Shown here: piece after piece, positions 3,089 to 40,297 of the stretch | Layout of the letters: every line of letters begins with the position of its first letter | Position numbering within the stretch: position 1 is the stretch's first letter | Origin: Chloroflexota bacterium | GTDB taxonomy: Bacteria; Chloroflexota; Anaerolineae; Promineifilales; Promineifilaceae | Direction: 5' to 3' | DNA length: 41,978 bases | Assembly: GCA_022616275.1 (NCBI GenBank) | Contig: JAKEFB010000058.1 | Location: 1-41,978 of the forward strand | Translations under genes and position numbers: made by a program | Notes under the pieces: generated by a model | The model's input: the letters and a program-made list of their open reading frames with translations, nothing else | What the model was told of the DNA's origin: nothing | The model's database searches: none

Positions 3089-3643
3089 TTGGCTATTTCT
3101 AAAGCTCGTAAAGAAGAACTGGTTGGTGATTACGTGGAATTGATCACGCAAAGCCGGGCTATCTTCATCACCGAGTACAAGGGAATGAGTATGAAGCAGA
3201 TCGAGGCCCTACGTGGTGAGATACGCAAGGCAGATGGCACATTTCATGTCACCAAAAATACTCTGCTCCGCCACGCGTTGGCACAGGCTGACAAGCCCGT
3301 CCCGGCCGAACTCTTGACGGGCCAGGTGGCGACTACGTTTGCCCTGAACGAAGCGCCCAGCCTGGCAAAGGTGCTGACCGATTATGCCAAGAAAGAAGCG
3401 CTTTTTACCATCAAGGGCGGCATTCTGGGCAACGACTTGCTGACCGCCGCCCAGGTGGAAGCGCTGGGCAAGCTGCCCTCGCTGGAGGAACTGCGGGCGC
3501 AAATTCTCGGCCTGCTCTCGGCCCCGGCGCAGAGCCTGACCTCGGCCGTGGCCAATGGCGTCCGCCAGGTGATCAACGTCCTGGACGCTTACGCCAAGAA
3601 GGACGCGGAAGCGGCGGCGGTAAGTGAGCAAGTGAGTAATTGA
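3089..3643 (+). CDS. rplJ: 50S ribosomal protein L10
   Basis: A 184-residue protein starting at TTG 3089 behind a near-perfect AAGGAGGTG ribosome site. It has the L10 N-terminal rRNA-binding domain (motif YKGMSMKQIEALR, then FHVTKNTLLRHAL) and a C-terminal helix that docks L7/L12 dimers. The last residues, VSEQVSN, come from an 8-bp tandem repeat (3624-3679) that also supplies the stop codon, so the extreme C-terminus is not ancestral sequence. Regulated by the upstream leader and attenuator. Confidence 0.95.
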   Translation: MAISKARKEELVGDYVELITQSRAIFITEYKGMSMKQIEALRGEIRKADGTFHVTKNTLLRHALAQADKPVPAELLTGQVATTFALNEAPSLAKVLTDYAKKEALFTIKGGILGNDLLTAAQVEALGKLPSLEELRAQILGLLSAPAQSLTSAVANGVRQVINVLDAYAKKDAEAAAVSEQVSN

Positions 3644-3679
3644 GTAATTAAGTAATTACCCAATTACCTAATTACGAAA
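3624..3679. repeat. Tandem array of seven 8-bp units across the rplJ stop
   Basis: Seven consecutive octamers, from GTGAGCAA and GTGAGTAA through TTGAGTAA and TTAAGTAA to TTACCTAA and TTACGAAA, run without gaps. The rplJ TGA stop (3641-3643) lies in the third unit. The early units pair partly with the later ones (AAGTAATTA against TAATTA-type sequence). Confidence 0.8.
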
Positions 3680-3737
3680 ACAAGTAATTTCTAACTCTAC
3701 ACTTTAATTAAGTAAGGATATCTGGAGGAACTATCAA

Positions 3738-4121
3738 ATGGCAGACCTTGCAAAAATTGTTGATGATCTGAGCAGCCTGAGCCTGCTGGAGGCGGCTGAA
3801 TTGACCAAGATGTTGGAAGCCAAATGGGGCGTGACCGCGGCGGCGCCGATGGCAATGGGCATGATGCCGATGGGCGGCGCTCCGGCAGCGGCCGAAGAAG
3901 TTGAGGAAAAGACTGAGTTCGACGTCATCCTCAAGGACGTTGGCCCCAAGAAGATCAACGTTATCAAGGAAGTTCGCGCCCTGACCGGCCTGGGCCTGAA
4001 GGAAGCCAAGGACGTCGTGGACGGCGCTCCCAACAAGATCATAGAAGCGGTGACCAAGGAAGCGGCCAACGAAGCCAAGGCCAAGCTGGAAGAAGCCGGC
4101 GCTGTCGTCGAAATCAAGTAG
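3738..4121 (+). CDS. rplL: 50S ribosomal protein L7/L12
   Basis: A 127-residue acidic protein. The N-terminal dimerisation domain (about 1-35) is followed by an Ala/Met/Gly-rich hinge (about 36-52, [17 protein letters not shown]) and the C-terminal factor-binding domain with [19 protein letters not shown] and [16 protein letters not shown]. It forms the stalk that recruits translation GTPases. It is preceded by a GGAGG site. A terminator follows, so rplJ-rplL is the end of this operon. Confidence 0.96.
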
Positions 4122-4151
4122 ACAACAGGTTATTGGGAAACTGTGTAAGGT

Positions 4152-4186
4152 AAAAAGGCCGGCCTGGAAACAAGCTGGCCTTTTTG
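4152..4186 (+). terminator. Intrinsic terminator after rplL
   Basis: AAAAAGGCC (4152-4160) pairs with GGCCTTTTT (4177-4185), extended by imperfect pairing inside, and ends in a T-run. It lies about 30 bases after the rplL stop and closes the ribosomal protein operon. The symmetrical A/T tails allow action on both strands, but only the plus-strand gene ends here. Confidence 0.8.
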
Positions 4187-4316: not shown

Positions 4317-4769
4317 ATGAGCGACGAAGAGGTTCCCAGCGTCGAAGAAATTAAGTCCCGTTTGGGCGATGAAATTCCTGTTGAGGAGGAGCCAACCGAA
4401 GCGTCCAAAGCCAACAAGGGCGAATCGGAGGTAGCCGCCGAGCTGCGCAACCTGGGCCGGCAGTTTGCCGAAACGCTGCGCACCGCCTGGAACAGCCAGG
4501 AGCGGCAGAAGTTTGAAAGTGAGGTGCGGGAGGGCGTCAAGTCCTTTGCCGACGAGGTAGACAAGGTGATCCGCGAGCTGCGGGAAAGCCCGGCCGCCCA
4601 GAAGGCCAAAGAAGAAGCCACCACGCTGAAGACAAAAGTGGAAGCGGCCGAGGTTGGCCAGAAGGCGCGGACTGGCCTGGTTCAGGGTCTGAACTGGTTG
4701 AGCGAAGAGCTGGGCAAGCTGGCCAACCAGTTTACGCCACCTGAGAAAGAGCCACCGGCGGAAGATTAA
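4317..4769 (+). CDS. Small acidic helical protein, function unknown
   Basis: A 150-residue charged protein with no signal peptide or clear membrane segment. Residues 1-40 are very acidic; about 40-125 are rich in Lys, Glu, Ala and Arg with heptad-like spacing (ELRNLGRQFAETLRTAW; SFADEVDKVIRELRESPAA), suggesting long amphipathic helices or a coiled coil; the tail is Pro/Glu-rich. It is preceded by AAGGAG. I do not recognise a family. It stands alone between the rplL terminator and a convergent F420-type oxidoreductase; the stop is followed at once by a 7-bp tandem array. Confidence 0.75.
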   Translation: MSDEEVPSVEEIKSRLGDEIPVEEEPTEASKANKGESEVAAELRNLGRQFAETLRTAWNSQERQKFESEVREGVKSFADEVDKVIRELRESPAAQKAKEEATTLKTKVEAAEVGQKARTGLVQGLNWLSEELGKLANQFTPPEKEPPAED

Positions 4770-4772
4770 GGG

Positions 4773-4800
4773 TTTTGGATTTTAGATTTTGGATTTTAGA
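4773..4800. repeat. Four 7-bp tandem units (TTTTGGA/TTTTAGA)
   Basis: TTTTGGA and TTTTAGA alternate four times directly after the stop of the small acidic protein. The same unit, in reverse complement (ATCTAAA/ATCCAAA), recurs at 26236-26260 and 28758-28778, and in the same orientation at 38821-38834. Confidence 0.75.
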
Positions 4801-4840
4801 TTGGGAAGACCCGACTAAATCCAAAATTAGCTCTGGCCAG

Positions 4841-6265: not shown

Positions 6266-6341
6266 GGAGATTAGAGATTTGAGATTAGAGATTGATTACA
6301 CCAAGGTTGCATACAATCTCCAATCTCCAATCTCCAATCTC
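6266..6341. repeat. Inverted pair of 7-bp arrays (GGAGATT / CAATCTC)
   Basis: Four GGAGATT/AGAGATT-type heptamers (6266-6293) are followed after about 20 bases by four CAATCTC heptamers (6314-6341), which are nearly the reverse complement. The pair could form a long imperfect hairpin. It occupies the divergent spacer between trxA and the amidohydrolase, where both promoters must lie. Confidence 0.8.
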
Positions 6342-6471
6342 CAATGACAGTGTCGTCGAGTTTACCCCAAGCTATAGGGCTGTCAAGAAAGGAAGTATAC
6401 AAGACAAATAGACAAATGTCAATATGATTGCCACATTGGCACGGCCGGCAACTGGCGCTAGAATCAACGTC

Positions 6472-10732: not shown

Positions 10733-10762
10733 TAGAGCTAGAGCGAGAGCTAGAGGTAGAGG
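10733..10762. repeat. Five 6-bp units across the HIT gene stop
   Basis: TAGAGC, TAGAGC, GAGAGC, TAGAGG, TAGAGG run in tandem. The stop codon of the minus-strand HIT gene (10750-10752) lies inside the array, between two convergent genes. Confidence 0.65.
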
Positions 10763-11250
10763 TTCTCCGCAGCGGGCCACCGCGCCAGGATGTATTGCCG
10801 AATAGTCAACGCCAAGGGAGTTAGCACATCACTTAGGAGCGGGTCATCCACTTTAGGGCCGAGGCCGTTGAAGACGTGTGCCCCTTTTAGCTCGGCCGGC
10901 CACTCCGGCAGGCGGGCAATGACGTGAAAGTGGACGTGGCTGTGCCCGGCGGCTTCAGCGAATTGCATCACATACTCTTTTTCCGATCCGACAATTTCGT
11001 GCAGGGCCTGGCAAAGTATGGGCAGTAATTGGCCAAGAGAGGCAAACTCTTCGGCCGTCAACTCGTGGAGGGCGGCAGCGTGGCGGACGAGGGCGACAAC
11101 TAGCCAGCCGCGCACTGAGGTTGGGTGGGCGTGCTCCACGCGCCAATGGGACGTCTCCAGGATACGTGGCGCATTGGTCAGCAATACGAACCCCTGTTGG
11201 GCCTGGCAGGTGAGGCAATAAGCATCTAAACTGCGCTGCTCAGCGTTCAT
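10750..11250 (-). CDS. HIT-family nucleotide-binding protein
   Basis: About 166 residues from the ATG at 11250. It has the histidine triad HVHFHVIARL preceded by GHS, the active site of HIT hydrolases and transferases that act on nucleotide phosphoesters. An N-terminal CLTC pair and HWRVEHAHPTSVRGWLVVALVRHAAALHEL match the family, with a CxxC that may hold zinc. A longer frame exists upstream to 11457 but would overlap the preceding gene. It starts 16 bases after the stop of the zinc-ribbon membrane protein, so the two are probably co-transcribed. The final residues come from a 6-bp repeat. Confidence 0.85.
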   Translation of the reverse strand: MNAEQRSLDAYCLTCQAQQGFVLLTNAPRILETSHWRVEHAHPTSVRGWLVVALVRHAAALHELTAEEFASLGQLLPILCQALHEIVGSEKEYVMQFAEAAGHSHVHFHVIARLPEWPAELKGAHVFNGLGPKVDDPLLSDVLTPLALTIRQYILARWPAAENLYL

Positions 11251-15867: not shown

Positions 15868-15954
15868 AACCTCCCGGGGGTTTGCGATTTCATTGATAAC
15901 CTCCTGGAGGTTTGAGATTAGAGGTCGGCAGTAGGCATTAACCTCCGGGAGGTT
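15868..15954. repeat. Three 15-bp AACCTCC-N-GGAGGTT palindromes
   Basis: Palindromes at 15868-15882 (one mismatch), 15898-15912 and 15940-15954 occur in the divergent spacer between the penicillin-binding protein and the thioredoxin/NHL lipoprotein. Their centres are about 30 and 42 bases apart. The same palindrome pair forms a 15-bp hairpin at 29206-29238. They could be operators or a dispersed repeat; position in a divergent promoter region favours neither decisively. Confidence 0.7.
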
Positions 15955-18251: not shown

Positions 18252-18733
18252 TGACCAACGCCAGGAAGCTACAAATCCACATACGGCCGGCAACGGTGGA
18301 CGATGTGCCGGTTTTGGCGGAGCTGCGCTACCGCTTTCGCAGCGAGATGGGGGCGCCGAACGAGGGGCGGGAAGCGTTTGTGGGCCGGGTGTCGGCCTGG
18401 TTGGGGGAGCGGCTGGATGGGAGGTTGTGGCGGGCCTGGGTGGCGGTGGCTGAGGACGGCCGGGTGGTAGGGCATGCCTTCGCCCAACTCATCGAAAAGA
18501 TCCCCAATCCAGTCCCGGAGGCCGAGTATATTCTTTACATCACCAACGTCTACGTGCTGCCGGAGCTGCGCAACCAGGGGATTGGCGGGCAACTACTGGA
18601 AGCGGCGCTGGCTGCCTGGCCGGAGAAAGAGAAGGAAAGCGCCATCCTCTGGCCGTCCGAAGAAAGCGTTAGCCTTTACCAGCGCCACGGCTTTGCCCGG
18701 CCCAGGCGGTTGTTGGAAAGGACTGAGGACTGA
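18251..18733 (+). CDS. GNAT-family N-acetyltransferase
   Basis: A 160-residue protein. It starts with IRPATVDDVPVLAELRYRF and has the acetyl-CoA-binding motif A within VYVLPELRNQGIGGQLLEAAL, then the motif B segment LYQRHGFARP. It acetylates an amine substrate that cannot be told. The ATG overlaps the stop of the preceding remnant reading frame. The C-terminal residues (RTED) and the stop are encoded by the first units of a GACTGAG tandem array, so the end is recent. Confidence 0.88.
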   Translation: MTNARKLQIHIRPATVDDVPVLAELRYRFRSEMGAPNEGREAFVGRVSAWLGERLDGRLWRAWVAVAEDGRVVGHAFAQLIEKIPNPVPEAEYILYITNVYVLPELRNQGIGGQLLEAALAAWPEKEKESAILWPSEESVSLYQRHGFARPRRLLERTED

Positions 18734-18780
18734 GGACTGAGGACTGAGTGGGCGAGTAGGCGAGTAGGCGAGTAGGCGAG
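18721..18780. repeat. Four GACTGAG heptamers followed by four (T)GGGCGAG/TAGGCGAG octamers
   Basis: GACTGAG is repeated exactly four times (18721-18748), then TGGGCGAG and three TAGGCGAG units (18749-18780). The acetyltransferase stop (18731-18733) lies in the second heptamer. After the array comes TGGCGACCAAAGGTCGCT, a short palindrome also found in diverged form at 24658-24675. Confidence 0.85.
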
Positions 18781-18839
18781 TGGCGACCAAAGGTCGCTGC
18801 AAGTAACTTGCCCCTTACCCGGGTGGCCGTGATCGGTAG

Positions 18840-19993: not shown

Positions 19994-20010
19994 GCAACAG
20001 TTGTTAAGTA

Positions 20011-23583: not shown

Positions 23584-23591
23584 CCCTGGCC

Positions 23592-24629: not shown

Positions 24630-24630
24630 G

Positions 24631-24698
24631 AGAGATTGAAGATTAGAGATTGGAGAGTGGCGACCAGAGGTTGCTCATTATCTCCAATCTCTACCCTC
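24631..24698. repeat. Inverted heptamer arrays between the ATPase and dehydrogenase genes
   Basis: AGAGATT, GAAGATT, AGAGATT and GGAGAGT (24631-24658) are followed by TTATCTC, CAATCTC and TACCCTC (24678-24698), their approximate reverse complement. In the loop lies GGCGACCAGAGGTTGC, a diverged copy of the palindrome at 18781-18798. Confidence 0.7.
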
Positions 24699-24699
24699 T

Positions 24700-26145
<1,446 letters not shown>

Positions 26146-26164
26146 GATCACCACCTCCGCATTG

Positions 26165-26260
26165 AGCCATCAGCTATCAGCTTTTAGCTATCAGTTGTCA
26201 GTTTTTGGCTGGCGGCTGATAGCTGATAGCCCTCAATCTAAAATCTAAAATCTAAAATCC
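26165..26260. repeat. Heptamer arrays AGCTATC/AGCTGAT and ATCTAAA
   Basis: Ten 7-bp units (AGCCATC, AGCTATC, AGCTTTT, AGCTATC, AGTTGTC and on to GGCTGAT, AGCTGAT, AGCCCTC; 26165-26234), in which the last units complement the first, are followed by three ATCTAAA units (26236-26256). The array fills the spacer between the solute-binding protein gene and the dehydrogenase gene and ends at the stop of the former. Confidence 0.8.
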
Positions 26261-27541: not shown

Positions 27542-27644
27542 TCCTCTCCTCCTGAGAAAAATGTAAAGGGCTCCTCTGAAGTAAATTGACCTGTGTGCCG
27601 GGAAGTTTACAATATGGTCTGAAGGCCGTCAACGTGTTTGTTTA

Positions 27645-27728
27645 ATCGCGAATCACGCGAATGAACCAATGACGCGAATTTATAACGAAAATCATTCGCG
27701 TCATTCGCCTATTCGTGCCATTCGCGAT
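27645..27728. repeat. GACRCGAAT-family repeats with inverted half
   Basis: TCGCGAATCACGCGAAT and GACGCGAAT units are followed by ATTCGCGTC, ATTCGCC, ATTCGTGCC, ATTCGCGA, giving a long imperfect palindrome in the divergent spacer between the binding-protein gene and the RNA methyltransferase gene. Same family as 7824-7903. Confidence 0.7.
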
Positions 27729-27754
27729 GAGCCTGGTGATGTGATCGGTAAGAC

Positions 27755-28711
27755 ATGAGCGAAACATTACTGGAGTTACCCGAGGAATTTCGCCAGCGGC
27801 TGGCGGCCGTTCTGCCTGGTGACGCTCTAGAAGGTTGCCTGGCCACTTTTGCCAGCCAGAAGCCGACAGCTTTTCGCGCCAATACGCTGAAGGCCGGTGT
27901 GGCCGAGGTCCGGGCGGAGCTGGAAGGGCAGGGCCTGGCCTTGACGCCGGTCAGTTGGTATCCAGAAGCGTTCCTGGTAGACCAGGGCCAGCGGCGGGCG
28001 CTGACCGAGTCGGCCGCTTTTTACGACGGCCGGATTTACATCCAGAACCTGTCCAGCATGCTGGCCCCCCTGGTCCTGGACCCCCAACCGGGGGAGGCAG
28101 TATTGGACCTGGCGGCCGCGCCGGGCGGCAAGACGCTGCAACTGGCGGCGATGATGGCCAACGACGGCCGGCTGGTGGCGGTGGAGGCGGTCAAGGGGCG
28201 CTATTACCGGCTGAAAGCCAACTTGCAGCAGTATGGGGCGACCATGGTCGAGGCGTACCTGATGGACGGCCGGGCCGCCGGCCGGCGCTGGCCGCAGGTG
28301 TTTGACCGGGTGTTGCTGGACGCTCCCTGCTCGTCCGAGGCCCGCTTTAGCCAATTGGAGCCGGAGAGCTGGGCCCATTGGAGCACGCGCAAGGTCAAGG
28401 AGAGCGCCCATAAGCAGAAAGGGTTGCTCCAGGCGGCCGTTTATGCCCTGCGGCCGGGAGGCACACTGGTCTACTGCACCTGCTCTTTCTCGCCGGAGGA
28501 GAACGAGGTAGCCGTCCATGCGCTGCTGCGCAAATTCGGCCCGGCGCTGGAAATCGAGCCTATCTCCCTGCCGTTAGATAACGTCCGGCCGGGGCTCACT
28601 GAATGGGAGGGCAAAGCGCTCCATCCCGACCTGGCCCACAGCGTGCGTATTCTGCCGACCGAGGTGATGGATGGGTTTTACTTGTGCAAGCTCAAAAAGA
28701 GCAATGAGTGA
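27755..28711 (+). CDS. RNA m5C methyltransferase, NOL1/NOP2/Sun family
   Basis: 318 residues. AdoMet-binding LDLAAAPGGKTLQLAA, then VLLDAPCSSEARF (Cys 192, the release cysteine) and VYCTCSFSPEENE (Cys 243, the catalytic nucleophile). The upstream substrate-recognition part has TAFRANTLKAG and YIQNLSSMLAPLVL. The length is short compared with RsmF or RsmB, lacking their C-terminal extension, so it may methylate a tRNA or rRNA cytosine; target unknown. The last codons and stop lie in a heptamer/octamer array. Confidence 0.9.
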   Translation: MSETLLELPEEFRQRLAAVLPGDALEGCLATFASQKPTAFRANTLKAGVAEVRAELEGQGLALTPVSWYPEAFLVDQGQRRALTESAAFYDGRIYIQNLSSMLAPLVLDPQPGEAVLDLAAAPGGKTLQLAAMMANDGRLVAVEAVKGRYYRLKANLQQYGATMVEAYLMDGRAAGRRWPQVFDRVLLDAPCSSEARFSQLEPESWAHWSTRKVKESAHKQKGLLQAAVYALRPGGTLVYCTCSFSPEENEVAVHALLRKFGPALEIEPISLPLDNVRPGLTEWEGKALHPDLAHSVRILPTEVMDGFYLCKLKKSNE

Positions 28712-28778
28712 TGAGTGGGTGAGTGGGCGAGTTTGGAGGTACGTACTCACTGATCCAATCCAAAATCTAAAATCTAAA
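28701..28778. repeat. GTGATGA/GTGGGTGA and ATCTAAA arrays after the RNA methyltransferase
   Basis: GCAATGA, GTGATGA, GTGGGTGA, GTGGGCGA (28701-28730) include the TGA stop at 28709. About 25 bases later come ATCCAAA, ATCTAAA, ATCTAAA (28758-28778). Both arrays lie between two convergent genes. Confidence 0.75.
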
Positions 28779-28837
28779 ATTCATCGTTGCGGACGATGAC
28801 GTGATTGGTCTGGGCGTGGCAGATTAGACAGTCTGCG

Positions 28838-29194
28838 CTACGGGCCAGGCAATACTCCCACTGGCACCAGCCAGGGGTGGAGTTCGACGATTAGCCGGCC
28901 GGCCTGGACCGAGGGATCGGCCGCGGCCAGGGCTTCGGCCTCCTCCAGCGATTCGGTGCGGAACAAGAACACGCCCCGCAGGTCGCCGCCGTCGGTAAAC
29001 GGCCCGGCCAGCACCAGCTTGCCGGCCTCACCTATACGCCGGATGTTGGCCATGTGGGCTTCTTGCAGCGCCTCGACCTCGGGCGTCACTTCCGGCGTCC
29101 AGGCCGGGCCGCGCCGCAGCAGCCCCAGGTAGTAGATGGTCATATGGGGCGGTATGGCGTTCTCGTCTTTAGGCACTGATTTGTCGTCAGTCAT
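28838..29194 (-). CDS. YciI-family protein
   Basis: 118 residues. After a short leader come HMTIYYLGLLRRGPAWTP, HMANIRRIGEAGKLVLAGPF, then GVFLFRTESLEEAEALAAADPSVQAG and VELHPW, the dimeric ferredoxin-like YCII fold with the conserved His and Asp region. Members occur as small stand-alone enzymes or dehydrochlorinase-like proteins; the reaction here is unknown. It stands between convergent RNA methyltransferase and PEP carboxylase on the same strand, with a palindromic hairpin just upstream. Confidence 0.85.
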   Translation of the reverse strand: MTDDKSVPKDENAIPPHMTIYYLGLLRRGPAWTPEVTPEVEALQEAHMANIRRIGEAGKLVLAGPFTDGGDLRGVFLFRTESLEEAEALAAADPSVQAGRLIVELHPWLVPVGVLPGP

Positions 29195-29205
29195 GTATCA
29201 CTCCT

Positions 29206-29238
29206 ACCCTCCCGGAGGTTCGGAACCTCCGGGAGGGT
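29206..29238. repeat. Perfect 15-bp hairpin made of two AACCTCC/GGAGGTT halves
   Basis: ACCCTCCCGGAGGTT (29206-29220) and AACCTCCGGGAGGGT (29224-29238) pair fully around CGG. It lies between the PEP carboxylase 3' end and the YciI start, both on the minus strand. No T-run follows on either strand. It shares its unit with the three palindromes at 15868-15954. Confidence 0.8.
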
Positions 29239-29300
29239 GTAACGGCGGTCTACCGATGCTTCGAAACTCCAACACGACCACACAACGACACAACGACACC

Positions 29301-32075: not shown

Positions 32076-32076
32076 A

Positions 32077-33312
32077 TCACTGAAATGCCTTTTGCCACCC
32101 GGCCGGCACTGTCTCACCGTAGACGACTTCGTTAGCCCCCAGAAAGGTAGCCAGCTCTGCAATCGCTCCGGCCACGGCCGCGCCCGTTTCGGCTGTCTGG
32201 GGTGCGGCCGGCTCGGCGTAGACGGCGTTGACGATCAGCCGCTTCTGTTGGCGGTCCATCCTGGGGTCCACCCGGCCGATGATCCGGTCGCCGTGCAGGA
32301 TGGGCAGGACGTAGTAGCCGTACTGCCGCTTGGCCTTAGGCACGTAAATCTCAACTCGGAAGAAAAAGTTAAAAAACTGCTCCGTCCGCTCCCGGTCACA
32401 GATAAGGTTGTCGAACGGCGATAGCAGCGTCGTGCGGGGCCGCCAATCACCGTTGGCCAGCGCCTCAACCAGCGGCACGTCGTCGGCGTGAACGTACCAG
32501 GGGCCGGGCCAGACCTGCCCATCTTCGACGATCTGCGCCGGGACGATCCGGCCGTCGGCCGCCAGTCGCTTGAGCACTCCATTCAGACCCGGATAATTTT
32601 TACGGGTAAAATGGCGGCTAATCTGGTTCGGCCGGGCCACACCCAGGCCCCGCAGCGACTTCTGGGCCGCGTCGTAAACCACCTGCGGCCACTCCCACTC
32701 CTGGCGCGGCGTCCAGGCTGGCAGGCAGCGCTCGGCCAGGTCCCACAACCGTTGCTGGCCGCTCCGGCCGGCGACCATCACCCTGCCCTGTGTCCACAAA
32801 AACTCCACCATCCAGTTCGCGTGCCGGCCGGACGACCAGACCCCAGGCTGGCTGCTGTCCGATTCAAAATAATCAGACGGCAGCGGGCCGCGTTGAGCCA
32901 GTTCGGCCAGGATATACTCGGCCAGCGCCGTATTTTTGGCCATCCACTCCCTGGCCCGCTTCACCCAGATCCCGTTACCGCTCCCCCAATCGCGCATCTG
33001 CGCCTGGAAGAGCGCATAATCTTCGGTCAGGACAATGGAAGCGGCGTGGGCCCAGTACTCAAAGAGGCAGCGTTCCTGCCAGAGCAGCCGGTCCAGATCG
33101 GCCGGGTTGTAATGGCCCAACCGGCTCCACAACACCAGGTACTGGGTGCGCTCTACGGCCCGGATGGGGTCGAGCTGCAGGCAGCGGATGTCACGCAGGA
33201 TGTTCATGATGCCGTCCAGATCGGCCGGCGGCCGGCGGCCGGCCAGGCGCTGGCGGCTAATGGCCAGGCGGCGGGCCAGGGTGGGGGTTAGAGTCAGTTC
33301 GGTAGCTATCAT
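32077..33312 (-). CDS. YcaQ-like DNA glycosylase (HTH_42 winged-helix family)
   Basis: About 411 residues from ATG 33312. The N-terminal region carries RCLQLDPIRAVERTQYLVLWSRLG; QLD (46-48) fits the QxD catalytic motif of AlkZ/YcaQ glycosylases, which unhook interstrand crosslinks and remove alkylated bases. Further family segments are CLFEYWAHAAS, LLSPFDNLICDRERTEQFF and YGYYVLPILHGDRIIGRVDPR. It is followed by ppc in a one-base-spaced pair; no functional link between them is evident. Confidence 0.87.
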   Translation of the reverse strand: MIATELTLTPTLARRLAISRQRLAGRRPPADLDGIMNILRDIRCLQLDPIRAVERTQYLVLWSRLGHYNPADLDRLLWQERCLFEYWAHAASIVLTEDYALFQAQMRDWGSGNGIWVKRAREWMAKNTALAEYILAELAQRGPLPSDYFESDSSQPGVWSSGRHANWMVEFLWTQGRVMVAGRSGQQRLWDLAERCLPAWTPRQEWEWPQVVYDAAQKSLRGLGVARPNQISRHFTRKNYPGLNGVLKRLAADGRIVPAQIVEDGQVWPGPWYVHADDVPLVEALANGDWRPRTTLLSPFDNLICDRERTEQFFNFFFRVEIYVPKAKRQYGYYVLPILHGDRIIGRVDPRMDRQQKRLIVNAVYAEPAAPQTAETGAAVAGAIAELATFLGANEVVYGETVPAGWQKAFQ

Positions 33313-33428
33313 AAGGCAGATAATACGGGATGGCCGGCCGATAATCAAACGATTATTGGGGCTTGCCAAGTTTGAATAGTTTATTTATCCTTAACGGACT
33401 ATTCACAATTACAAGGAGAGTTTTTATC

Positions 33429-33641
33429 ATGAACGAACGAGAAACAGGAACCGTCAAATGGTTCAACCCTAAAAAGGGGTACGGTTTTATTGCTCGTGAC
33501 GCCGGTGGTGACGTTTTTGTCCATTACAGCGCGATTCTGGGCGGTGGTCTCAAGACCTTAAACGAAGGAGAACGCGTGGAGTTCACGGTGGAGCAGAGCC
33601 CCAAAGGGCCGGCCGCCGCTCAAGTAGAGACCGTAGTCTGA
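33429..33641 (+). CDS. Cold-shock protein (CspA family)
   Basis: 70 residues from ATG 33429, preceded by AAGGAGAG at 33412-33419. It has the cold-shock domain with RNP1 [10 protein letters not shown]2 VFVHY and the family N-terminus [12 protein letters not shown]. It binds single-stranded RNA or DNA and melts RNA structure. The frame extends to 33363, but the extension lacks a ribosome site and is not conserved. A spacer of about 320 bases with three hairpins follows. Confidence 0.95.
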
Positions 33642-33656
33642 CACTCTGTTACCGGC

Positions 33657-33788
33657 AGTGCCTGGCACGGGGCAAACGGCTATAGATTAAGCAGAGTGGT
33701 TCTACCCCGTGCCAGGCACTATGGAGATCCGATCTCGAAACCCCGCAGGTCGGGGCACGAAGCGTGCCCTCAGAGACCTGCGGGGTTT
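33657..33788 (+). ncRNA. Structured region with two strong hairpins, possible small RNA or 3' UTR element
   Basis: A 16-bp perfect pairing, AGTGCCTGGCACGGGG (33657-33672) with 33705-33720, is followed by a nested hairpin. Its outer stem AAACCCCGCAGGTC (33738-33751) pairs with 33775-33788; its inner stem GGGCACG (33753-33759) pairs with CGTGCCC (33763-33769) around AAG. A third hairpin with a T-run (33794-33831) ends the series. No reading frame of note lies here. The arrangement fits a long structured 3' UTR of the cold-shock gene or an independent small RNA. Confidence 0.4.
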
Positions 33789-33793
33789 GATAG

Positions 33794-33831
33794 CAGAGGA
33801 CCTTACTGGTGTAAGGTCCTCTGTTCTTTTT
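33794..33831 (+). terminator. Intrinsic terminator
   Basis: CAGAGGACCTTAC (33794-33806) pairs exactly with GTAAGGTCCTCTG (33811-33823) around TGGT and is followed by TTCTTTTT. It is about 150 bases beyond the cold-shock stop and would end any transcript from that gene or the structured region. Confidence 0.88.
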
Positions 33832-33965
33832 GCCTTTCTTCGTCTGATGTGCGATCCTTGGAGACATTCCTTAAGAGGATGATTGTTGCCGAGCCACATC
33901 AACGGGAAAGAGGAGTATCCCAAGGGCATTGTTTGCCGCCAGGGTAGCGGGTGCCCTAAAAATAG

Positions 33966-36404
33966 ATGTTCCCAATGAACCAGCCATACGTGCCCTCCGC
34001 CCAGTCCACACCGTTCATTGGCCGCCAGGCAGAGCTGGCAGAAATCAATCGTTGCCTGGCCGACGCGGGGTGTCGCCTGTTGACCCTGATCGGCCCCGGC
34101 GGCGTTGGCAAAACACGCCTGGTCCGTGAGGCCCTTGACCACCTACCGGCCGGCGCCAGGGCTTATCTCATTCCACTGGCCTCTGTGCCTTCGGCCGATC
34201 TCCTGGTGCCCACTATAGCCGCTGCGCTGGACTTCTCCTTTTACGGCGAAAAGCAGAACGACGAAAGCGCTCGCCAACAACTGTTCAATTATCTGCAACG
34301 GCAAAAGCTGGTGCTGGCGCTGGACGACTTTGACCATTTGCGCGACGGAACGCCACTCCTGGTAGAAATGCTGTCGGCCGCCCCCAACGTAAAAATCCTG
34401 GTGACGGCCGAAGAACGGCTGGAGCTACCCGAGGAGCGGCCCCTGCCGGTGCATGGGCTGCCATACCCGGCCGAGGACGCCAACCCCGAGGAAGCGATCA
34501 GCTACGACGCCGTTCAATTGTTCGTCCATTGCGCCCGCAAAGCCCAGCCGGATTTCTCTCTCTCGGCCGAAGAAGCGCCGGCCGTCGTTCAAATTTGCCA
34601 GTTGTTGGATGGTCTACCGTTGGGGATTGAACTGGTCGCTCCCTGGGTAGAGTTATTTTCCTGCCGGACGATTGCCCGAGAACTGGAACGTAACCTCCCT
34701 TTCCTGGCCGGCCCGGCGGCGACCGGCAGGGAAAGCCAGCGCAGCCTGGCGGCCGTTTTTGAAAATTCCTGGAATCGCCTGCCGGCCGAAGAACAATTCT
34801 TAATCTGGCAATTGACTGTTTTTGAGGGTGGCTTCCGGCCGGAAGCGGCCGCCTACGTTTGTGGCGCGACCCCGGCCCAACTGGCTACCCTGGCCGAAAA
34901 ATCGTTTCTGCGCCCGGCCGGCAGCCGAGGCCAGGAGAATAGCCGCTACGAGATACCGGTCTTCTTCAAACGCTTTATCCAGGAGAAAGCCAAGGCCCTG
35001 GACGAATACCAGCGGGAAGCGGCCGAAATGGAAGCGCGCAACCGGCATTGTGATTACTTTGTCGCCTTTTTAAAGGAACGTGAGGCGCGCCTCAAAGACG
35101 ACAGGCAGATTGAGGCAGTGGCCGAAATCACCCGGGAAATTGAGAACGTGCGGGCTGCCTGGAACTGGGCGACCAGCCAGGCTCGAGAGGTAGCCATTGG
35201 CCAGGCCCTTGACAGCCTCTATTACTTTTACGAGTTGCGAAGCTGGTTCCACGAAGGTGTCCGGGCCCTGTCGCGGGCCAGCCGATCCCTGGCTCGCTAT
35301 ACCGGCGGACTGACGGATTTGATGGGCCGGGTGTTTGCCCGGCAGGCCTGGTTCTTGCTCCGCCTGTCACAATATGAGTCGGCGGCCGGGCTGCTCCAGG
35401 ACAGCCTGCTCATCCTGCTGCGCCATTCGGCCGGTCAGGAAGAAGTTGCCTTCACCCTTGGCGCTTTGGGCGTGGCCCTGGACGCCCAGGGAAAGCACGC
35501 CGAGGCCCAGCGGAACCTGCAAGAAAGCCTGTCGCTCTACCAGGCGGCCGATGACCCCTGGGGCACGGCCAACGCGCTCATCCGGTTAGGTAACAACGCC
35601 CTCAGCACCGGGTCGTACCGGGAAGGGCGCGATTTTTACGGCCAGGCGGCGACACTCTGTGAAGAACACAGCTACGTGAGAGGCTTTGCCCTGTGCCTGA
35701 ACAACCTGGCCCACATTGCCGAAAAATCGGGAGAGTACGTCCTGGCTAAAGAGATGTACCAGGAAAGCCTGGCCCTTAGAGAGGATATTGGCGACCAGGT
35801 GGGCGTGGCTTTTTCGCTAAACAACCTGGGCTACATCGCCTTTTTGCTGGGCGAGTACGAAGAAGCGCTGTCGCATTTGCAGCGGAGCCTGGCCATTTTT
35901 GAGTCCATTGGCGAGCGGCGCGGCCAGGCTTACGCCCTGGACAACACCGGCCACGTGGCCCTGGCCCGGCAAGAGTACGGAAAGGCCCGGGAGATGTACG
36001 GGCAGAGCCAGGCCATCTTCCTGGAAATTGGCGACCCGGCCGGCGTGGCTTTTTCGAGCAGCGACCTGGGCCACGCCCTGTTTGCGCTGGGGGAGCACGG
36101 CGAAGCCCGGCAGCAATTCGTGGCCGCCTTGCGGCTCAGCCAGGGCCGGCCGGCGTGGGTGGCCCTGGCTGCTTTGAGCGGGCTGGCCGCCCTGCTGGCC
36201 CAAGAAGGCAAGGCGGAGCAGGCTGTCTCCCTGGCCGCAGTCATCCGGCGGCACAACGAAAGCAACCCCAAGACCCGGGAAAGGGCCCAACTTTTCCTGG
36301 AGCAGATGGAGGAGCGCCTGCCGCCGGAGCAGTTCAACGCCGCCCGCCAGCGGGGCGAGGCGCAGGGGTTGAAGGAGCTGATTATTGAGATTGTGGGTAG
36401 TTGA
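33966..36404 (+). CDS. STAND ATPase with NB-ARC-like and TPR domains
   Basis: 812 residues. Walker A is GPGGVGKT (43-50), Walker B LVLALDDFD (115-123), followed by ILVTAEERLELPEE and the GLPLGIELVAPW motif typical of NB-ARC-like STAND proteins. A helical linker follows, and about seven TPR repeats fill residues 440-740 (e.g. ALCLNNLAHIAEKSGEYVLAKEMYQES). There is no DNA-binding or enzymatic effector domain at either end, unlike LuxR or AfsR relatives. A TAG sits directly before the ATG, so the N-terminus is not cut by annotation. Function may be signal sensing or defence; unknown. Confidence 0.88.
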   Translation: MFPMNQPYVPSAQSTPFIGRQAELAEINRCLADAGCRLLTLIGPGGVGKTRLVREALDHLPAGARAYLIPLASVPSADLLVPTIAAALDFSFYGEKQNDESARQQLFNYLQRQKLVLALDDFDHLRDGTPLLVEMLSAAPNVKILVTAEERLELPEERPLPVHGLPYPAEDANPEEAISYDAVQLFVHCARKAQPDFSLSAEEAPAVVQICQLLDGLPLGIELVAPWVELFSCRTIARELERNLPFLAGPAATGRESQRSLAAVFENSWNRLPAEEQFLIWQLTVFEGGFRPEAAAYVCGATPAQLATLAEKSFLRPAGSRGQENSRYEIPVFFKRFIQEKAKALDEYQREAAEMEARNRHCDYFVAFLKEREARLKDDRQIEAVAEITREIENVRAAWNWATSQAREVAIGQALDSLYYFYELRSWFHEGVRALSRASRSLARYTGGLTDLMGRVFARQAWFLLRLSQYESAAGLLQDSLLILLRHSAGQEEVAFTLGALGVALDAQGKHAEAQRNLQESLSLYQAADDPWGTANALIRLGNNALSTGSYREGRDFYGQAATLCEEHSYVRGFALCLNNLAHIAEKSGEYVLAKEMYQESLALREDIGDQVGVAFSLNNLGYIAFLLGEYEEALSHLQRSLAIFESIGERRGQAYALDNTGHVALARQEYGKAREMYGQSQAIFLEIGDPAGVAFSSSDLGHALFALGEHGEARQQFVAALRLSQGRPAWVALAALSGLAALLAQEGKAEQAVSLAAVIRRHNESNPKTRERAQLFLEQMEERLPPEQFNAARQRGEAQGLKELIIEIVGS

Positions 36405-36432
36405 GGGCGCAGTTTCAAAACTGCGCCCTCAA
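36401..36432. terminator. Bidirectional terminator between STAND ATPase and herA
   Basis: TTGAGGGCGCAGTTT (36401-36415) and AAACTGCGCCCTCAA (36418-36432) are perfect reverse complements. The STAND stop (TGA at 36402) lies in the left arm, and the herA stop follows the right arm. A/T tracts inside the stem and its placement between two converging genes suggest shared termination; the T-run is short, so efficiency is uncertain. Confidence 0.65.
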
Positions 36433-38139
36433 TTACCCAAACAACTCTGCGTTAATGTCTTCCACCTTGCGCCGGCCGTTGCTGGTTCCGCTCTTCCGGC
36501 CGCGCATCTCGTCGTAAAAGGCGTCGTCGTAGCGGCGAGACTTGACGGGAATGGGCATCTTTACCCCCCAGCCCAACAGCAGCACCTCTTCCTTTTCTTG
36601 CAGCCGGGCCAGCATGCCCCGCAACTGTTCCCGGCCGGCCAGGCCGGTGAGGACGGCGCGAATGTCGTCTTCGTCGCCCAGCCAGCCGGTAATGCGGGTG
36701 CCCAGTTGGGACATGACTTCGTCGTCAATGCCCGACGGCCGCTGGTCCACGACCAGCAGGGTGACAAAGTATTTGCGTAGCTCGCGGGCAATCGTGCCAA
36801 AGGCCGTCTGGCCGGCCAACTGGGGGTTTAACAGCTTGTGCGCTTCCTCGATGGCCACGATCAGCGGCCGGGGATCTGGGCCGCCCGACGTTTTGCGTTC
36901 TTCTGTTTTCTTGACCCAGTGCTGGCGGATGCGCCGGGTGAGGATGTTGGAGACCAGCAGGTAGTCCAGCTCGCTATCGTGCTCGCCGAAGCTGAGGATG
37001 ACGTGTCTTTCATGCTCCAGTTTGTCCACAATGTCGGTCACGGCGTCGGTGGCCGGCCGCTCGACGACGTATGGCCGGTCATAAATCAGCTTCAGCTTGC
37101 GGTGCAACCCCTCGGCCGCCTTCTCGTGGACGTTGTTGGCCCGGGCCCAGGCGGCGACCGAGTTAGCGGCCGGCTCAGTAACGGTCCTGCCCGATTCGGT
37201 GGTATACGTTTCCGTTGCCCCTGGCTCCAGCTTCATAAATTCGGCAAACCAGCGCCCCTGGAAACTCCGTTCCAGGGCGTTGAGCGTCACCGCCGCCGTT
37301 TCGGTCAGATTCAGAGCCTCGGCCAGCAGGTGAATGTCGCCAGTCTGAAAGTCGCTCAGGGCCAGCTCCAGGGTAAAGTCAGGCAGGTGGCCGCGCACCG
37401 TCGCCCCTTTGCCCAACGCCGCTACCTGTACTTTGGCGTCAAACAGGGATTTCAGACCCCGCACGTTTTTATCTTCGTCGGTGGCAATATCGTCGAAGGC
37501 GTATTCGTTGTGCATATCAAAAACCAGGGCGGAGGCTACGTTCTCGCGCATTAATCCCGCTAACATGATTCGAGTCAGAAAACTCTTGCCCGTGCCGGTG
37601 GCGCCGAAGATGCCGCTGGAACGCTTGACGAACCGGTTCAGGTCCAGGCGAACCGGATAGCCCTGTTCAATGGTGTGGCCGACGATAAACATGCCCTTGC
37701 CTTCTTTGCCAAAGATTTCGGCCACGTCGGCTTCGCCGGCCGGGCGGACGGCAGCGTAATGGGCGGGCACGGTCTTCACCGGCCGGGGGCCGGGGTTTTC
37801 CAGCCCCTTGTCAACCCGCTCCTGCCAGTCCAGGAACCCGGCCGGGTCGTCTGGCCCCCGGTCGAGCATCAGGGTCGGATACATGGCCAGGGTGGTGTAA
37901 AGGGTCTTGCCCAGCAGGGCCTGGGTAATGGCCGGCTGCAGGCGGGCGCTCTGCTCATCGGCAAAGCGAGGGTCGGTGGCTCCCAGCAGCAGGTCGGTGA
38001 CCAGGCCGTAGTAGCGGTAGCGGCCGTTGTCGCAGACGACAAAGCTGCCTTCCTGGACGTTGTCGGCCGGGACGGTCAGCCGGATGTAAAACCCTTCTTT
38101 CAGGCCACCGCCGACGATGTAACCGATTGTTTCGTTCAT
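36433..38139 (-). CDS. herA: HerA-type hexameric DNA translocase/ATPase
   Basis: 568 residues. A small beta domain (about 1-60, GYIVGGGLKEGFYIRL) resembles the HAS barrel of HerA. The FtsK/HerA RecA core has Walker A GATGTGKS (179-186), LVFDMHNEYAF, Walker B PLIVAIEEAH (425-434) and the arginine/sensor segment VDQRPSGIDDEVMSQLGTRI, the usual HerA hallmark. HerA pumps DNA for end resection with the nuclease NurA. It is the third gene of the operon NurA - HAS-barrel protein - HerA; the 68-base gap to the second gene is filled by inverted heptamer arrays. Confidence 0.93.
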   Translation of the reverse strand: MNETIGYIVGGGLKEGFYIRLTVPADNVQEGSFVVCDNGRYRYYGLVTDLLLGATDPRFADEQSARLQPAITQALLGKTLYTTLAMYPTLMLDRGPDDPAGFLDWQERVDKGLENPGPRPVKTVPAHYAAVRPAGEADVAEIFGKEGKGMFIVGHTIEQGYPVRLDLNRFVKRSSGIFGATGTGKSFLTRIMLAGLMRENVASALVFDMHNEYAFDDIATDEDKNVRGLKSLFDAKVQVAALGKGATVRGHLPDFTLELALSDFQTGDIHLLAEALNLTETAAVTLNALERSFQGRWFAEFMKLEPGATETYTTESGRTVTEPAANSVAAWARANNVHEKAAEGLHRKLKLIYDRPYVVERPATDAVTDIVDKLEHERHVILSFGEHDSELDYLLVSNILTRRIRQHWVKKTEERKTSGGPDPRPLIVAIEEAHKLLNPQLAGQTAFGTIARELRKYFVTLLVVDQRPSGIDDEVMSQLGTRITGWLGDEDDIRAVLTGLAGREQLRGMLARLQEKEEVLLLGWGVKMPIPVKSRRYDDAFYDEMRGRKSGTSNGRRKVEDINAELFG

Positions 38140-38157
38140 GATCTTTCCCCTCGAAAT

Positions 38158-38222
38158 GGAGATTAGGGATTGGAGATTGGAGATTGGAGATTGCCAATCT
38201 CTAATCTCTAACCTCCAATCTC
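38158..38222. repeat. Inverted heptamer arrays, five GGAGATT and four AATCTC units
   Basis: GGAGATT, AGGGATT, GGAGATT, GGAGATT, GGAGATT (38158-38192) and, two bases on, CAATCTC, TAATCTC, TAACCTC, CAATCTC (38195-38222) form near-perfect reverse complements that could fold into a stem of roughly 28 bp. The stop of the HAS-barrel gene (38208-38210) lies in the second half. Confidence 0.85.
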
Positions 38223-38879
38223 CAGCTCCGGCAGCGCGTCGCTGATGGCCTCCAACGTCGGAACCAGCAGGTCGTAATTGCTGCGCAGCAGCTCGATCAG
38301 TTCCTCGATGGTGCGCATGGCCCAGGCGGCGTCCCGGCCGCGCTGCTGGTAGGTGTGGCCAATGTGGGCGACCAGCAACTGGTCTACTGGCACGGGACTG
38401 CCGGCCGTCCGCAAAATCAGCCGCAGGTAGCCCGGCCGGGCGGTAAACTCGCGGACCTCGTCTGGCTCGTCGCAGAGGAAGACGGGGTCCAGGTTCAGCG
38501 GCGGCCGGGGCGGCAGGCCGTGGTGGAGTTCGCCGTTCAGCCGGTAGCCGACGGCCAGGGTGCTCATCTCAATGGGCAGCAGGCGGTTGTTGCGCTGGTC
38601 TTCGATGACCGACTGGCGGGGGTTCTCGGCCAGCACCAGCCGGCGCACCAGCGGGTCGTCGTCAATGTGAATGTCGTAGACCAGGCCGTAAATGGCTTCG
38701 CGGGCATCCACCGGCTGGGCCTTGACCAGGCAGCCAAAGCTGGGCGCAGCCAACTGGTGGACCCGGCAGCCCACAGCAAAGCCGGCCGTGCTGGCCCGCA
38801 ACACCCGCCCAATTTCCAGATTTTGGATTTTAGATGCGAAAGCTTCGCGTTCGTCAAGATTTTGGATTTCGTCAAACAT
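38208..38879 (-). CDS. HAS-barrel-type protein between nurA and herA
   Basis: About 223 residues from ATG 38879. The recognisable part begins IGRVLRASTAGFAVGCRV and continues SFGCLVKAQPVDAREAIYGLVYDIHID, a beta-barrel pattern like the HAS domain of HerA/ATP synthase. A middle region (PIEMSTLAVGYRLNGELHHGLPPRPPLNLDPV) and a C-terminal helical part (GRDAAWAMRTIEELIELLRSNYD) are less familiar. The first 25 residues come mostly from TTTTGGA-type repeats, so the real start may lie downstream, near the GTG at about 38806. It is expected to help couple NurA to HerA; inference. Confidence 0.7.
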   Translation of the reverse strand: MFDEIQNLDEREAFASKIQNLEIGRVLRASTAGFAVGCRVHQLAAPSFGCLVKAQPVDAREAIYGLVYDIHIDDDPLVRRLVLAENPRQSVIEDQRNNRLLPIEMSTLAVGYRLNGELHHGLPPRPPLNLDPVFLCDEPDEVREFTARPGYLRLILRTAGSPVPVDQLLVAHIGHTYQQRGRDAAWAMRTIEELIELLRSNYDLLVPTLEAISDALPELEIGG

Positions 38880-38953
38880 CACCCATCACTCATCACTCAT
38901 CACTCATTACTCATCACTCAGTCCTCAGTCCTCAGTCCTCACACCTCATGCCT
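38877..38953. repeat. Eleven-unit heptamer array joining nurA stop and HAS-gene start
   Basis: Eleven 7-bp units run without a gap: CATCACC, three CATCACT, CATTACT, CATCACT, three CAGTCCT, CACACCT and CATGCCT. The NurA stop (38939-38941) and the start codon of the HAS-barrel gene (38877-38879) both fall inside. This is the longest such array in the window. Confidence 0.85.
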
Positions 38954-40189
38954 CGTTTTCCCGGCGCGGGCGACGTTTTTGGCGCTTTGTTTGGCGGTGA
39001 TGGCGTGGTAGACGCCGTAGCGCTGCATGGCGTACTCGATCATGGCGTCCAGGCTCTCGTGGTCCTGGTAGCCGACGACGGCAATTTCGTCGGCCCGGGC
39101 CAGGACGTAGGGATAATCGCCCATAATCCGGCATTGGTCGTAGACCAGGGCGTGGACGGCCGCTACAGCCGCCGGGTCCTGGGCCACGAAGCGGGGAATG
39201 TCTACGCGGGCAATCTGCCGGCCGGAGCGGCCGGGATTCAGGTAAAAGAAGCAGACTTCGTTGAGCGGGTCGCGGTGGTAAAAGTCCTGGTTGTGCTGGG
39301 AAACGTCCACAAAGACCTTGCTGCGCTGCCCCGGCTCCAGCAGGTGGCGGAAAAGAATGTTGTCGGCCAGGAAGGGCTGGGCGTCTCGCTCGGTCAGGAT
39401 GCGCAGGTCAAACCCGGGCCGGTTGACGTCGAGCGTGTGTAGCAGGGTAATGACCGAGCGCTTGCCGGGGTTGACGATGTAGCCGGCCAGCAGCGCGCCA
39501 GCGCGCCGGACGTCGCTCATGGCCGCCTGCCAGCCGTGCAAGACGCGGCTGCCTTCCGGGTCGTTGGTGCCCACGGCCGGCCAGTAGAGCAACCGCTGGT
39601 CCAGAAGGGCGACGAGCGGCCGGACCTCGTCCTGCTGTTCGTGGGCGATCCTGGCCAGGGTCTCTATTTCGGCCCGGTCGCGCCGCAGGCTGACCACGGC
39701 GCCGCTGTCGGCAAATTGTTCAGCCTCTTCCCCGGCCTCGTACGGGGCGGGTGGCGTGGCCGCCTGGCCGTTGCGGCCGGGGTAGTCCAGGGCCGGCTCG
39801 GTGAATTGGAGGGGTAGCCGGCCGCGGCCGTGGTAGTAAACGATGACGCCGACGTTGATGAGCGAATAGAGGTAAGGGGCGTGCCGGTCGGGCAGGATTT
39901 GCGAGCCGTCGGTGGCAATGAGCGTGGCCTGGGCCGGCAGGGGGGGCGGGTCTACGGCCGCGTCCAGTGGCTCGTCGTGGTCCAGCGGCCGGGCGGCGCG
40001 GAACTTCTTAAAGTCCACCCGCTGGATGGCCTGTTCCAGGCCGGCGTTGATCCCGTCCCAATCGGCGGCGTGGTCGCGCAGCTTTTGCAGCAGGCGTTCG
40101 ACCAACAACCGGCTTTGCTGCTGGCGGGCGTAAGTGCTGCGCACCATTTCCTCCAGGTTATCGGTTATTTTTTCAAACTCCAGCGTCAT
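38939..40189 (-). CDS. nurA: NurA-type nuclease
   Basis: 416 residues. The NurA signature is present: ATLIATDGSQI with catalytic Asp 94, LVALLDQRLLYW (Asp about 197), AGYIVNPGKRSVI, and RQIARVDIPRF near the C-terminus, which fits the last acidic motif. NurA is a Mn-dependent 5' to 3' nuclease that resects DNA ends together with HerA. First gene of the NurA - HAS-barrel - HerA operon. The final residues HEV are encoded in the heptamer array 38877-38953. Confidence 0.9.
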   Translation of the reverse strand: MTLEFEKITDNLEEMVRSTYARQQQSRLLVERLLQKLRDHAADWDGINAGLEQAIQRVDFKKFRAARPLDHDEPLDAAVDPPPLPAQATLIATDGSQILPDRHAPYLYSLINVGVIVYYHGRGRLPLQFTEPALDYPGRNGQAATPPAPYEAGEEAEQFADSGAVVSLRRDRAEIETLARIAHEQQDEVRPLVALLDQRLLYWPAVGTNDPEGSRVLHGWQAAMSDVRRAGALLAGYIVNPGKRSVITLLHTLDVNRPGFDLRILTERDAQPFLADNILFRHLLEPGQRSKVFVDVSQHNQDFYHRDPLNEVCFFYLNPGRSGRQIARVDIPRFVAQDPAAVAAVHALVYDQCRIMGDYPYVLARADEIAVVGYQDHESLDAMIEYAMQRYGVYHAITAKQSAKNVARAGKTRHEV

Positions 40190-40262
40190 GGCAGCACAAG
40201 GACCTCCACAGTACCCGGCAAGAGTGTAGCACGCATGAGCTAAGGAAGCGAATTTTGAAAGA

Positions 40263-40297
40263 GGGCTGAGGACTGAGGACTGAATGAAGAGTGATGA
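40263..40297. repeat. GGACTGA/GTGATGA heptamers upstream of the AT-rich region
   Basis: GGGCTGA, GGACTGA, GGACTGA, ATGAAGA, GTGATGA (40263-40297), the same unit family as 18721-18748 and the complement of 38919-38939. It marks the border to the AT-richer tail of the window. The next 130 bases hold no gene I can support; a possible -10 (TAGAAT near 40403) lies just before the next gene. Confidence 0.7.

Follow-up and report, generated by a model that had tools for sequence, protein, structure and literature searches.

Inverted pairs of short-period tandem arrays with the G-rich arm first in gene junctions of a Chloroflexota bacterium

Short-period tandem arrays of many different units are dispersed in the gene junctions of a Chloroflexota bacterium of the family Promineifilaceae (assembly GCA_022616275.1; 8.53 Mb in 309 contigs). 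Many of these arrays form inverted pairs, which fold into hairpins with the G-rich arm first on either strand. The analysis started from the whole 41,978-bp stretch of contig JAKEFB010000058.1 (GC 60%), referred to below as the window. A preliminary description of the window had listed 11 tandem-array stretches in its spacers and related them to gene ends; the inverted pairs and their fixed order, which are the main feature, were overlooked. The arrays are read here, tentatively and with somewhat less than even confidence, as lineage-specific dispersed short-period repeats that become established at gene junctions, where they may form 3′-end hairpins resembling repetitive extragenic palindromes (REPs).

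Two samples were taken from large contigs of this genome: a discovery sample of 441,978 bp, which includes the window, and a hold-out sample. Together they cover about 841 kb, of which 93 kb are noncoding. Four hypotheses, on stops, strand, spacer class and partners, were fixed before the hold-out sample was drawn. Genes were predicted with a home-made caller, whose stop positions are surer than its starts and which left an atypical island at about 19.3-21.8 kb partly uncalled. In the window, arrays were located by Tandem Repeats Finder (TRF) and gene ends were taken from a list of open reading frames (ORFs).

The short-period arrays are real beyond chance. At a score of at least 14 in the 441,978-bp set, noncoding and coding arrays numbered 7 and 5 for period 6, 32 and 8 for period 7, and 11 and 9 for period 8, with 0 and 0, 0 and 1, and 0 and 0 for periods 10, 11 and 13. 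A Markov control (mean of 5 sequences of the noncoding length of this set) gave 0.0 arrays at every period. At a score of at least 12 in about 841 kb, periods 6, 7, 8 and 9 were represented by 11, 84, 36 and 4 noncoding arrays and periods 10, 11 and 13 by 1, 1 and 0, whereas the 40 arrays of period 14 are a harmonic; period 7 had 15 arrays in coding sequence against the 84 in noncoding sequence. The spacers contained 91 arrays in the discovery sample and 83 in the hold-out sample (about 200 per Mb), and identical units recur at many places in the genome. The genome-wide family of short-period arrays proposed earlier is borne out by this excess of periods 7 and 8.

Forty-nine close couples of arrays were found in the two samples together. 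The G-rich array precedes the C-rich one in 29 couples of the same unit and in 9 of different units. The reverse order occurs in one couple of the same unit and in two of different units, both in divergent spacers, and the remaining 8 couples are same-strand or neutral. The exact GAGATT pair pattern occurs G-first 208 times in the whole genome (overlapping matches counted) and C-first 0 times, and the C-first pattern was found in 0 of 41 genomes. Polarity was also scored with a hairpin detector that uses no information on unit sequences, hairpins being classed as periodic if their arms have a period of 6-9. The two samples yielded 129 spacer hairpins; the ratio of G-first to C-first to tied hairpins was 49:0:1 for periodic arms and 36:31:12 for the others (Fisher, 9e-10). 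The corresponding values were 31:0:0 versus 20:17:6 in the discovery sample and 18:0:1 versus 16:14:6 in the hold-out sample, and periodic hairpins without GAGATT units gave 29:0:1. In nine relatives (designated by handles such as G022), stretches unselected for arrays contained 14 G-first periodic hairpins and one C-first. Most relative stretches of another polarity set had been picked for GAGATT arrays and were counted apart as targeted (two stretches of G361 in this set were untargeted); these targeted loci gave 22:1:1 for periodic and 12:6:2 for non-periodic hairpins. Clustering of the periodic-hairpin units at a rotation distance of at most 2 produced 8 groups, of which seven are G-first only and one consists of one G-first hairpin and one tie. 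The number of independent unit families is uncertain and may be as low as 8, because the period-7 units chain into a single group of 31.

The anatomy of the GAGATT pairs was examined in a 1.52-Mb set that includes regions picked for GAGATT arrays. This set contains 63 distinct pairs, none of them C-first, and 62 of the 63 fold as a single hairpin. A core hairpin, GCAACCnnnGGTTGCTC, has 18 copies in the genome, whereas the reversed pattern has 0; by eye, 16 copies lie between GAGATT-type arms (one of them degenerate inside) and 2 within an 8-bp array. Apical loops of 3-4 nt are present in 30 of the 63 pairs against about 26 under a random-loop null and are thus undistinctive, and no outer flank common to the 63 pairs was recognized by eye. 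The pair pattern was detected in 7 of 400 genomes of the phylum, including this one; six belong to the same class and one, G207, to another. A 20-base GAGATT array was found in 9 of 41 genomes, again including this one, all of the same family. In G207, the GAGATT pairs inspected are near-perfect mirrors and the units differ from place to place. Near-perfect mirrored GAGATT/CAGATT hairpins lie between convergent genes of G207 at L209 1265-1333, L210 10001-10069, L211 572-640 and L212 1147-1222.

Two explanations that involve dedicated enzymes were considered. REPs and bacterial interspersed mosaic elements (BIMEs) mobilized by REP-associated tyrosine transposases (RAYTs) would be palindromic, located in spacers near gene ends and of several kinds per genome, as the arrays are, and the core hairpin common to 18 copies would fit them. 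However, the tandem units vary in number and the outer flanks are not common by eye. The arrays are also unlinked to the number of Y1 transposases in 25 genomes of the family (Spearman rho 0.09, P=0.68; counts only), and G023, the genome with the most array matches (165), encodes 0 Y1 transposases. This origin is regarded as improbable. An origin as scars of end addition is hardly more probable. A telomerase-like reverse transcriptase or a terminal polymerase would add G-rich repeats of 6-9 nt to the 3′ ends of breaks, and joining of such ends would leave G-first couples; the gene junctions of many lineages would then contain lineage-specific 'interstitial telomere' repeats, in couples of the same or of different units. 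Fused telomeres give the G-first order. The different-unit couples are also G-first (9 versus 2, although several of the 9 look related), the arms are unequal and non-mirrored, and the unit sizes are telomere-like. The reverse transcriptase DRT10 produces 9-nt tandem repeats on an RNA template (PMC12632851). It is protein-primed, however, and the available part of that source mentions no chromosomal addition by DRT10. Moreover, the reverse transcriptase count does not follow the array count (rho 0.22, P=0.29, 25 family genomes; counts only), the many units would require many templates, and the near-perfect mirrored pairs of G207 suggest copying.

The arrays are oriented with respect to the genes that they follow. 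Among arrays that adjoin one stop, the sense strand is the G-rich one in 43 against 3 in the discovery sample and in 27 against 4 in the hold-out sample (70:7 pooled). The same strand bias is present in arrays that have neither a partner array nor a hairpin (18:2 and 12:3, 30:5 pooled). In codirectional spacers, 79 of 125 arrays lie closer to the stop (P=0.004), and arrays near starts are below the permuted value (20 versus 32.3 in the discovery sample, 15 versus 23.7 in the hold-out sample). When expectations are calculated by bp, convergent spacers hold 15 arrays versus 7.5 expected and 12 versus 6.9, and divergent spacers 10 versus 24.6 and 12 versus 22.4, in the discovery and hold-out samples, respectively; per spacer, the divergent class is not lower, holding 0.20 and 0.32 arrays (other classes, 0.23-0.32). 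An inverted partner within 100 bp is present for 24 of 91 and 18 of 83 arrays, which are raw counts without a permutation control. Rho loads on C-rich unpaired RNA. The G-first order might be kept since, if a C-rich arm were synthesized first and stayed unpaired, Rho would load on it and terminate transcription prematurely. This would agree with the G bias of the sense strand at stops and with the location of both different-unit C-first couples in divergent spacers, but single arrays with C on the sense strand are common in codirectional spacers (26 versus 43 with G), and selection of this kind seems unlikely, if a little less so than the two enzymatic origins.

Periodic hairpins occur in codirectional or convergent spacers in 45 of 50 cases and non-periodic hairpins in 69 of 79. 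Strong hairpins after stops, with 11 of the 50 periodic ones between convergent genes, would be expected of ordinary intrinsic terminators that are repetitive by chance. Arrays are nevertheless found within the rplJ-rplL and nurA-herA gene series, the T-run of such terminators is missing, and no terminator-like match at window positions 22001-41978 uses an array arm as its stem. Terminators are the least probable of the explanations considered here.

Orthologous junctions were compared between this genome and its relatives. In the nurA-herA series, which includes a gene labelled HAS-barrel and was compared by eye in 20 relatives with a match, the spacers of this genome carry GGACTGA/GTGATGA and GGAGATT units. 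The spacers of other genomes contain AGACCTC (G005), a TAGTGCG pair enclosing the stop (G008), ATTCGTG (G011) and a CGCGGATT/AATCTGCG pair enclosing the stop (G015), and further relatives are without a clear array. One ABC transporter junction exists in three states: this genome carries a 9-bp array, G008 a 7-bp pair and G026 no array. Elsewhere, where G361 has a gap of 2 bp, this genome has a 73-bp spacer containing a repeat hairpin. A count was made over 108 conserved neighbouring gene pairs from 27 spacers of this genome (self-matches included; mostly loci chosen for arrays in this genome). Arrays were present on both sides in 12 pairs, only in this genome in 43, only in the relative in 5 and in neither in 48. 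Six of the 12 are self-matches; the other six have no common unit by eye, and five of them are at the two nurA-herA spacers. At orthologous junctions, related genera mostly have either no array or a different unit.

The end of rplJ could be read in 22 of 23 relatives, and the array of the window is present in none of them. The detector found no array in the rplJ-rplL spacer of the 20 relatives compared; visual inspection shows a degenerate TAATT-rich stretch at this place in G015. The L10 protein of the window has a seven-residue tail, VSEQVSN, encoded by the array, whereas close relatives end, for example, in EAA. Among the records that the search covered, the named matches to this L10 were two Anaerolineae/Anaerolineales metagenome-assembled genomes at 45% identity, which makes a taxonomic label from this protein approximate. 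An array gained after divergence has remade the C-terminus of at least one gene, rplJ. The array-made C-termini of the other genes are putative, being read from this genome alone. The relatives of the RNA methyltransferase gene, at 33-40% identity, are too distant for a comparison of its junction.

The favoured insertion-and-expansion reading can be outlined as follows. Repeats of 6-9 bp (mainly 7 and 8, of many units) would enter junctions and expand there after the genera split. We infer that copies within genes were probably purged, the survivors being those in spacers, often near a stop. Since neither 7 nor 8 is divisible by three and many units hold a stop in some frame, an array growing back across a gene end would give the protein a short new C-terminus and the gene a new stop. 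If the arrays are transcribed, the hairpin may work on RNA as REPs do, as a 3′ structure that slows an exonuclease or polymerase and so acts on the upstream transcript. The observed parts of this reading are the arrays themselves, their periods and polarity, the sense-strand bias at stops and the exchange of units at orthologous junctions, whereas purging, transcription, a hairpin function and the mode of dispersal are inferences.

Several results weigh against this reading. No covariation was found at the variable site of the GAGATT pairs (Watson-Crick 41 of 100 versus 48.5 expected), which is a real weakness for any claim of a functional hairpin. Their arm lengths are uncorrelated (r=-0.16), and sense G.U versus A.C at the variable site was 23:18, with no G.U sign of RNA structure. 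At least 7 T in the 10 flanking nt of either strand occur in 0 of 50 periodic hairpins and in 5 of 79 non-periodic ones. The non-periodic control is clean in this genome only, because in the unselected stretches of the same nine relatives the non-periodic hairpins also lean to G-first (27:6:7). C-first periodic hairpins exist, one in G022 and one in G207, and the AGCTATC/GCTGATA couple of the window (26165-26230), the sole same-unit exception among the couples, is C-first by its G-C count. Unit turnover is incomplete, because G010 and, in a short form, G013 keep a GAGATT unit at the same stop as in this genome. Arrays within 15 bp of a stop numbered 51 of 91 versus 40.9 permuted in the discovery sample (P=0.005) but 35 of 83 versus 29.6 in the hold-out sample (P=0.086), unconfirmed at 5%. 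Those overlapping or abutting a stop numbered 30 versus 29.0 (P=0.45) and 26 versus 20.6 (P=0.07), respectively. The link to gene ends drawn in the preliminary description therefore stands in part: swallowed stops exist, mostly because spacers are short, whereas any special preference for stops is weak after correction for spacer length.

The arrays could also be functionless by-products of polymerase slippage, kept where harmless, their order arising when the G-rich strand slips or folds back in replication or transcription. This neutral explanation is less likely but close behind the insertion-and-expansion reading. Arms without covariation and of uncorrelated length, patchy presence across orthologs and the weak stop preference are all compatible with it, as is an idea cited in the available text of Rehm 2015 (PMC4692102), that heptamers correspond to the stretch of DNA in contact with the polymerase. 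Identical units at many places nevertheless require dispersal besides slippage, and a further cause is required for the order that different units share and for the G-rich sense strand at stops.

The arrays of the window are listed in Table 1. TRF detected tandem arrays at all 11 stretches listed previously, although their description as mostly of exact period 7 is incomplete: the period is 8 at 3620-3675 and 18746-18786, 6 at 10733-10761, and 8 at 28712-28732 beside a period-7 array. Stretches previously read as single arrays are inverted couples at 3622-3675, 6267-6345, 24631-24698, 26165-26230 and 38157-38224, and 28712-28780 couples two unrelated units. Stops were correctly placed inside arrays for rplJ, the GNAT gene, the minus-strand gene ending at 10750, the gene between nurA and herA, and nurA, whereas the stop of the RsmF-like RNA methyltransferase gene is just ahead of the TRF array start at 28712, though in repeat-like letters.

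Table 1. Short-period arrays and inverted pairs in the window
Positions	Array or pair	Location	Basis and remarks
3620..3675	8-bp array GTAATTGA and inverted partner AATTACCC	Between rplJ and rplL; rplJ stop (3641-3643) inside	TRF, fold, orthologs
4773..4802	7-bp array TTTTAGA/TTTTGGA	Convergent spacer, 4 bp past stop of ORF 4317-4769	TRF
6266..6345	G-first inverted pair: GAGATTA arm, loop of about 20 nt, CAATCTC arm	Divergent spacer	Predicted fold -36.2 kcal/mol, flanks included
10733..10763	6-bp array TAGAGC	Over stop (10750-10752) of minus-strand gene	TRF, ORF ends
18719..18786	Composite: 7-bp AGGACTG, then 8-bp GAGTAGGC; G-rich strand common to both	Over GNAT gene stop (18731-18733)	Gene matches Pfam PF13508 and PF00583
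24631..24698	G-first inverted pair AGAGATT ... AATCTC with GGCGACCAGAGGTTGCTC hairpin inside	Adjoins aldehyde dehydrogenase stop (24700, minus strand)	Left arm by TRF, right arm seen in fold only; -39.8 kcal/mol with flanks
26165..26259	AGCTATC arm and GCTGATA arm, then AATCTAA array	Adjoins solute-binding protein gene stop (26261, minus strand)	
27648..27708	9-bp-period inverted pair GCGAATCACGCGAATGA / TCATTCGCGTCATTCGC, G-first by one base		Beyond earlier list; TRF 27692-27726
28701..28780	Couple of unrelated units, G-rich TGAGTGGG then C-rich AATCTAA	After and partly across RsmF-like stop (28709-28711)	
29272..29299	8-bp array ACACAACG	Adjoins stop end (29301) of minus-strand ORF	Beyond earlier list; TRF
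38157..38224	G-first inverted pair TGGAGAT / CCAATCT	Holds stop (38208-38210) of gene between nurA and herA	Predicted fold -44.4 kcal/mol, flanks included
38877..38948	CATCACT array then CTCAGTC array, G-rich on minus (sense) strand	Holds nurA stop (38939-38941)	
40261..40283	7-bp array GAGGACT	Divergent spacer, upstream of nurA	TRF

Pfam matches back the L10, GNAT, aldehyde dehydrogenase, solute-binding protein, RsmB/F methyltransferase, HerA central domain and NurA assignments. The HIT label of 10753-11250 and the HAS-barrel label of 38211-38882 found no such backing, with zero Pfam matches at 1e-3. A trace of the HAS-barrel, under its Pfam cut-off, is instead present in the herA protein. 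Rfam at gathering scores gave no match at the arrays; in the window it yields only one tRNA and an L10 leader upstream of rplJ (2834-3077, 45 bits against a cut-off of 44).

Other elements were noted in the window. Positions 19742-21788 encode a Phd/YefM antitoxin (PF02604) and an N6/N4 DNA methylase (PF01555), and a neighbouring gene without a Pfam match may be a restriction enzyme. These genes were missed by the caller, which was trained on this genome, and their codon use is therefore atypical. A dispersed palindromic element, composed of AACCTCC(C/T)GGAGGTT, a 27-nt loop with recurring letters around GGTCGGCAGTAGGCATT, and then AACCTCCGGGAGGTT, is present at 15898-15954 of the window, at L060 2594-2654 and 12539-12595, and at L075 3073-3133 and 11642-11700. 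It looks like a REP-like dimer or one resembling miniature inverted-repeat transposable elements (MITEs).

Cyanobacterial short tandemly repeated repetitive (STRR) sequences are tandem heptamers in spacers. The likeness to them drawn in the preliminary description applies to period and location. The closer published match is the heptamer class of Xanthomonas and Nostoc (GGGAATC and GGGGA(C/T)T; Rehm 2015, PMC4692102). According to the available text of that paper, these repeats are dispersed, mostly intergenic and close to gene ends, their G strand is the sense strand downstream of genes, some run across stop codons, they are under-represented between divergent genes, and 70 convergent pairs were counted in Xcc and 75 in Xac. 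The arrays described here share with them the noncoding excess of period 7, G on the sense strand near stops, overlap with stops, and inverted pairs. They differ from that single class with G-quadruplex tracts, as far as it is described there, in their many units, in periods of 6-9 and in units that differ at several orthologous junctions. A search of 1.52 Mb of this genome, covering both strands, gave 0 tandem GGGNATC or GGGGA(C/T)T doublets, versus 371 GAGATTN doublets.

The TAACTGA direct repeats of Beggiatoaceae lie for the most part immediately upstream of starts, and the main genome is reported to have one indirect repeat, according to the part of the report available (MacGregor 2015, PMC4679880). 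They are likewise intergenic heptamers, some beside ribosomal protein genes, but consist of one unit, whereas the present arrays lie near stops and include many inverted pairs. REPs, in the available account, are extragenic palindromes of many kinds, mostly downstream of genes (PMC3733652). The present pairs are also extragenic palindromes, mostly in codirectional or convergent spacers, but unlike REPs their arms are tandem repeats. No report of such repeats in Anaerolineae, or of a single order shared by many units, was among the literature matches listed, which is weak evidence of absence given that subscription journals were thinly covered.

Published heptamer arrays, in the sources available, have been treated one unit class at a time, and their cause is not agreed. 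What is constant in the present arrays (period, polarity and position) can now be separated from what is variable (sequence), which makes the cause testable. Spacer repeats can also change how a conserved protein ends, ribosomal L10 being an example. The arrays belong to an already known kind of repeat, with a Xanthomonas precedent for convergent pairs near stops; what looks new in comparison is that many units obey one strand order within a genome and that different units occupy several orthologous junctions.

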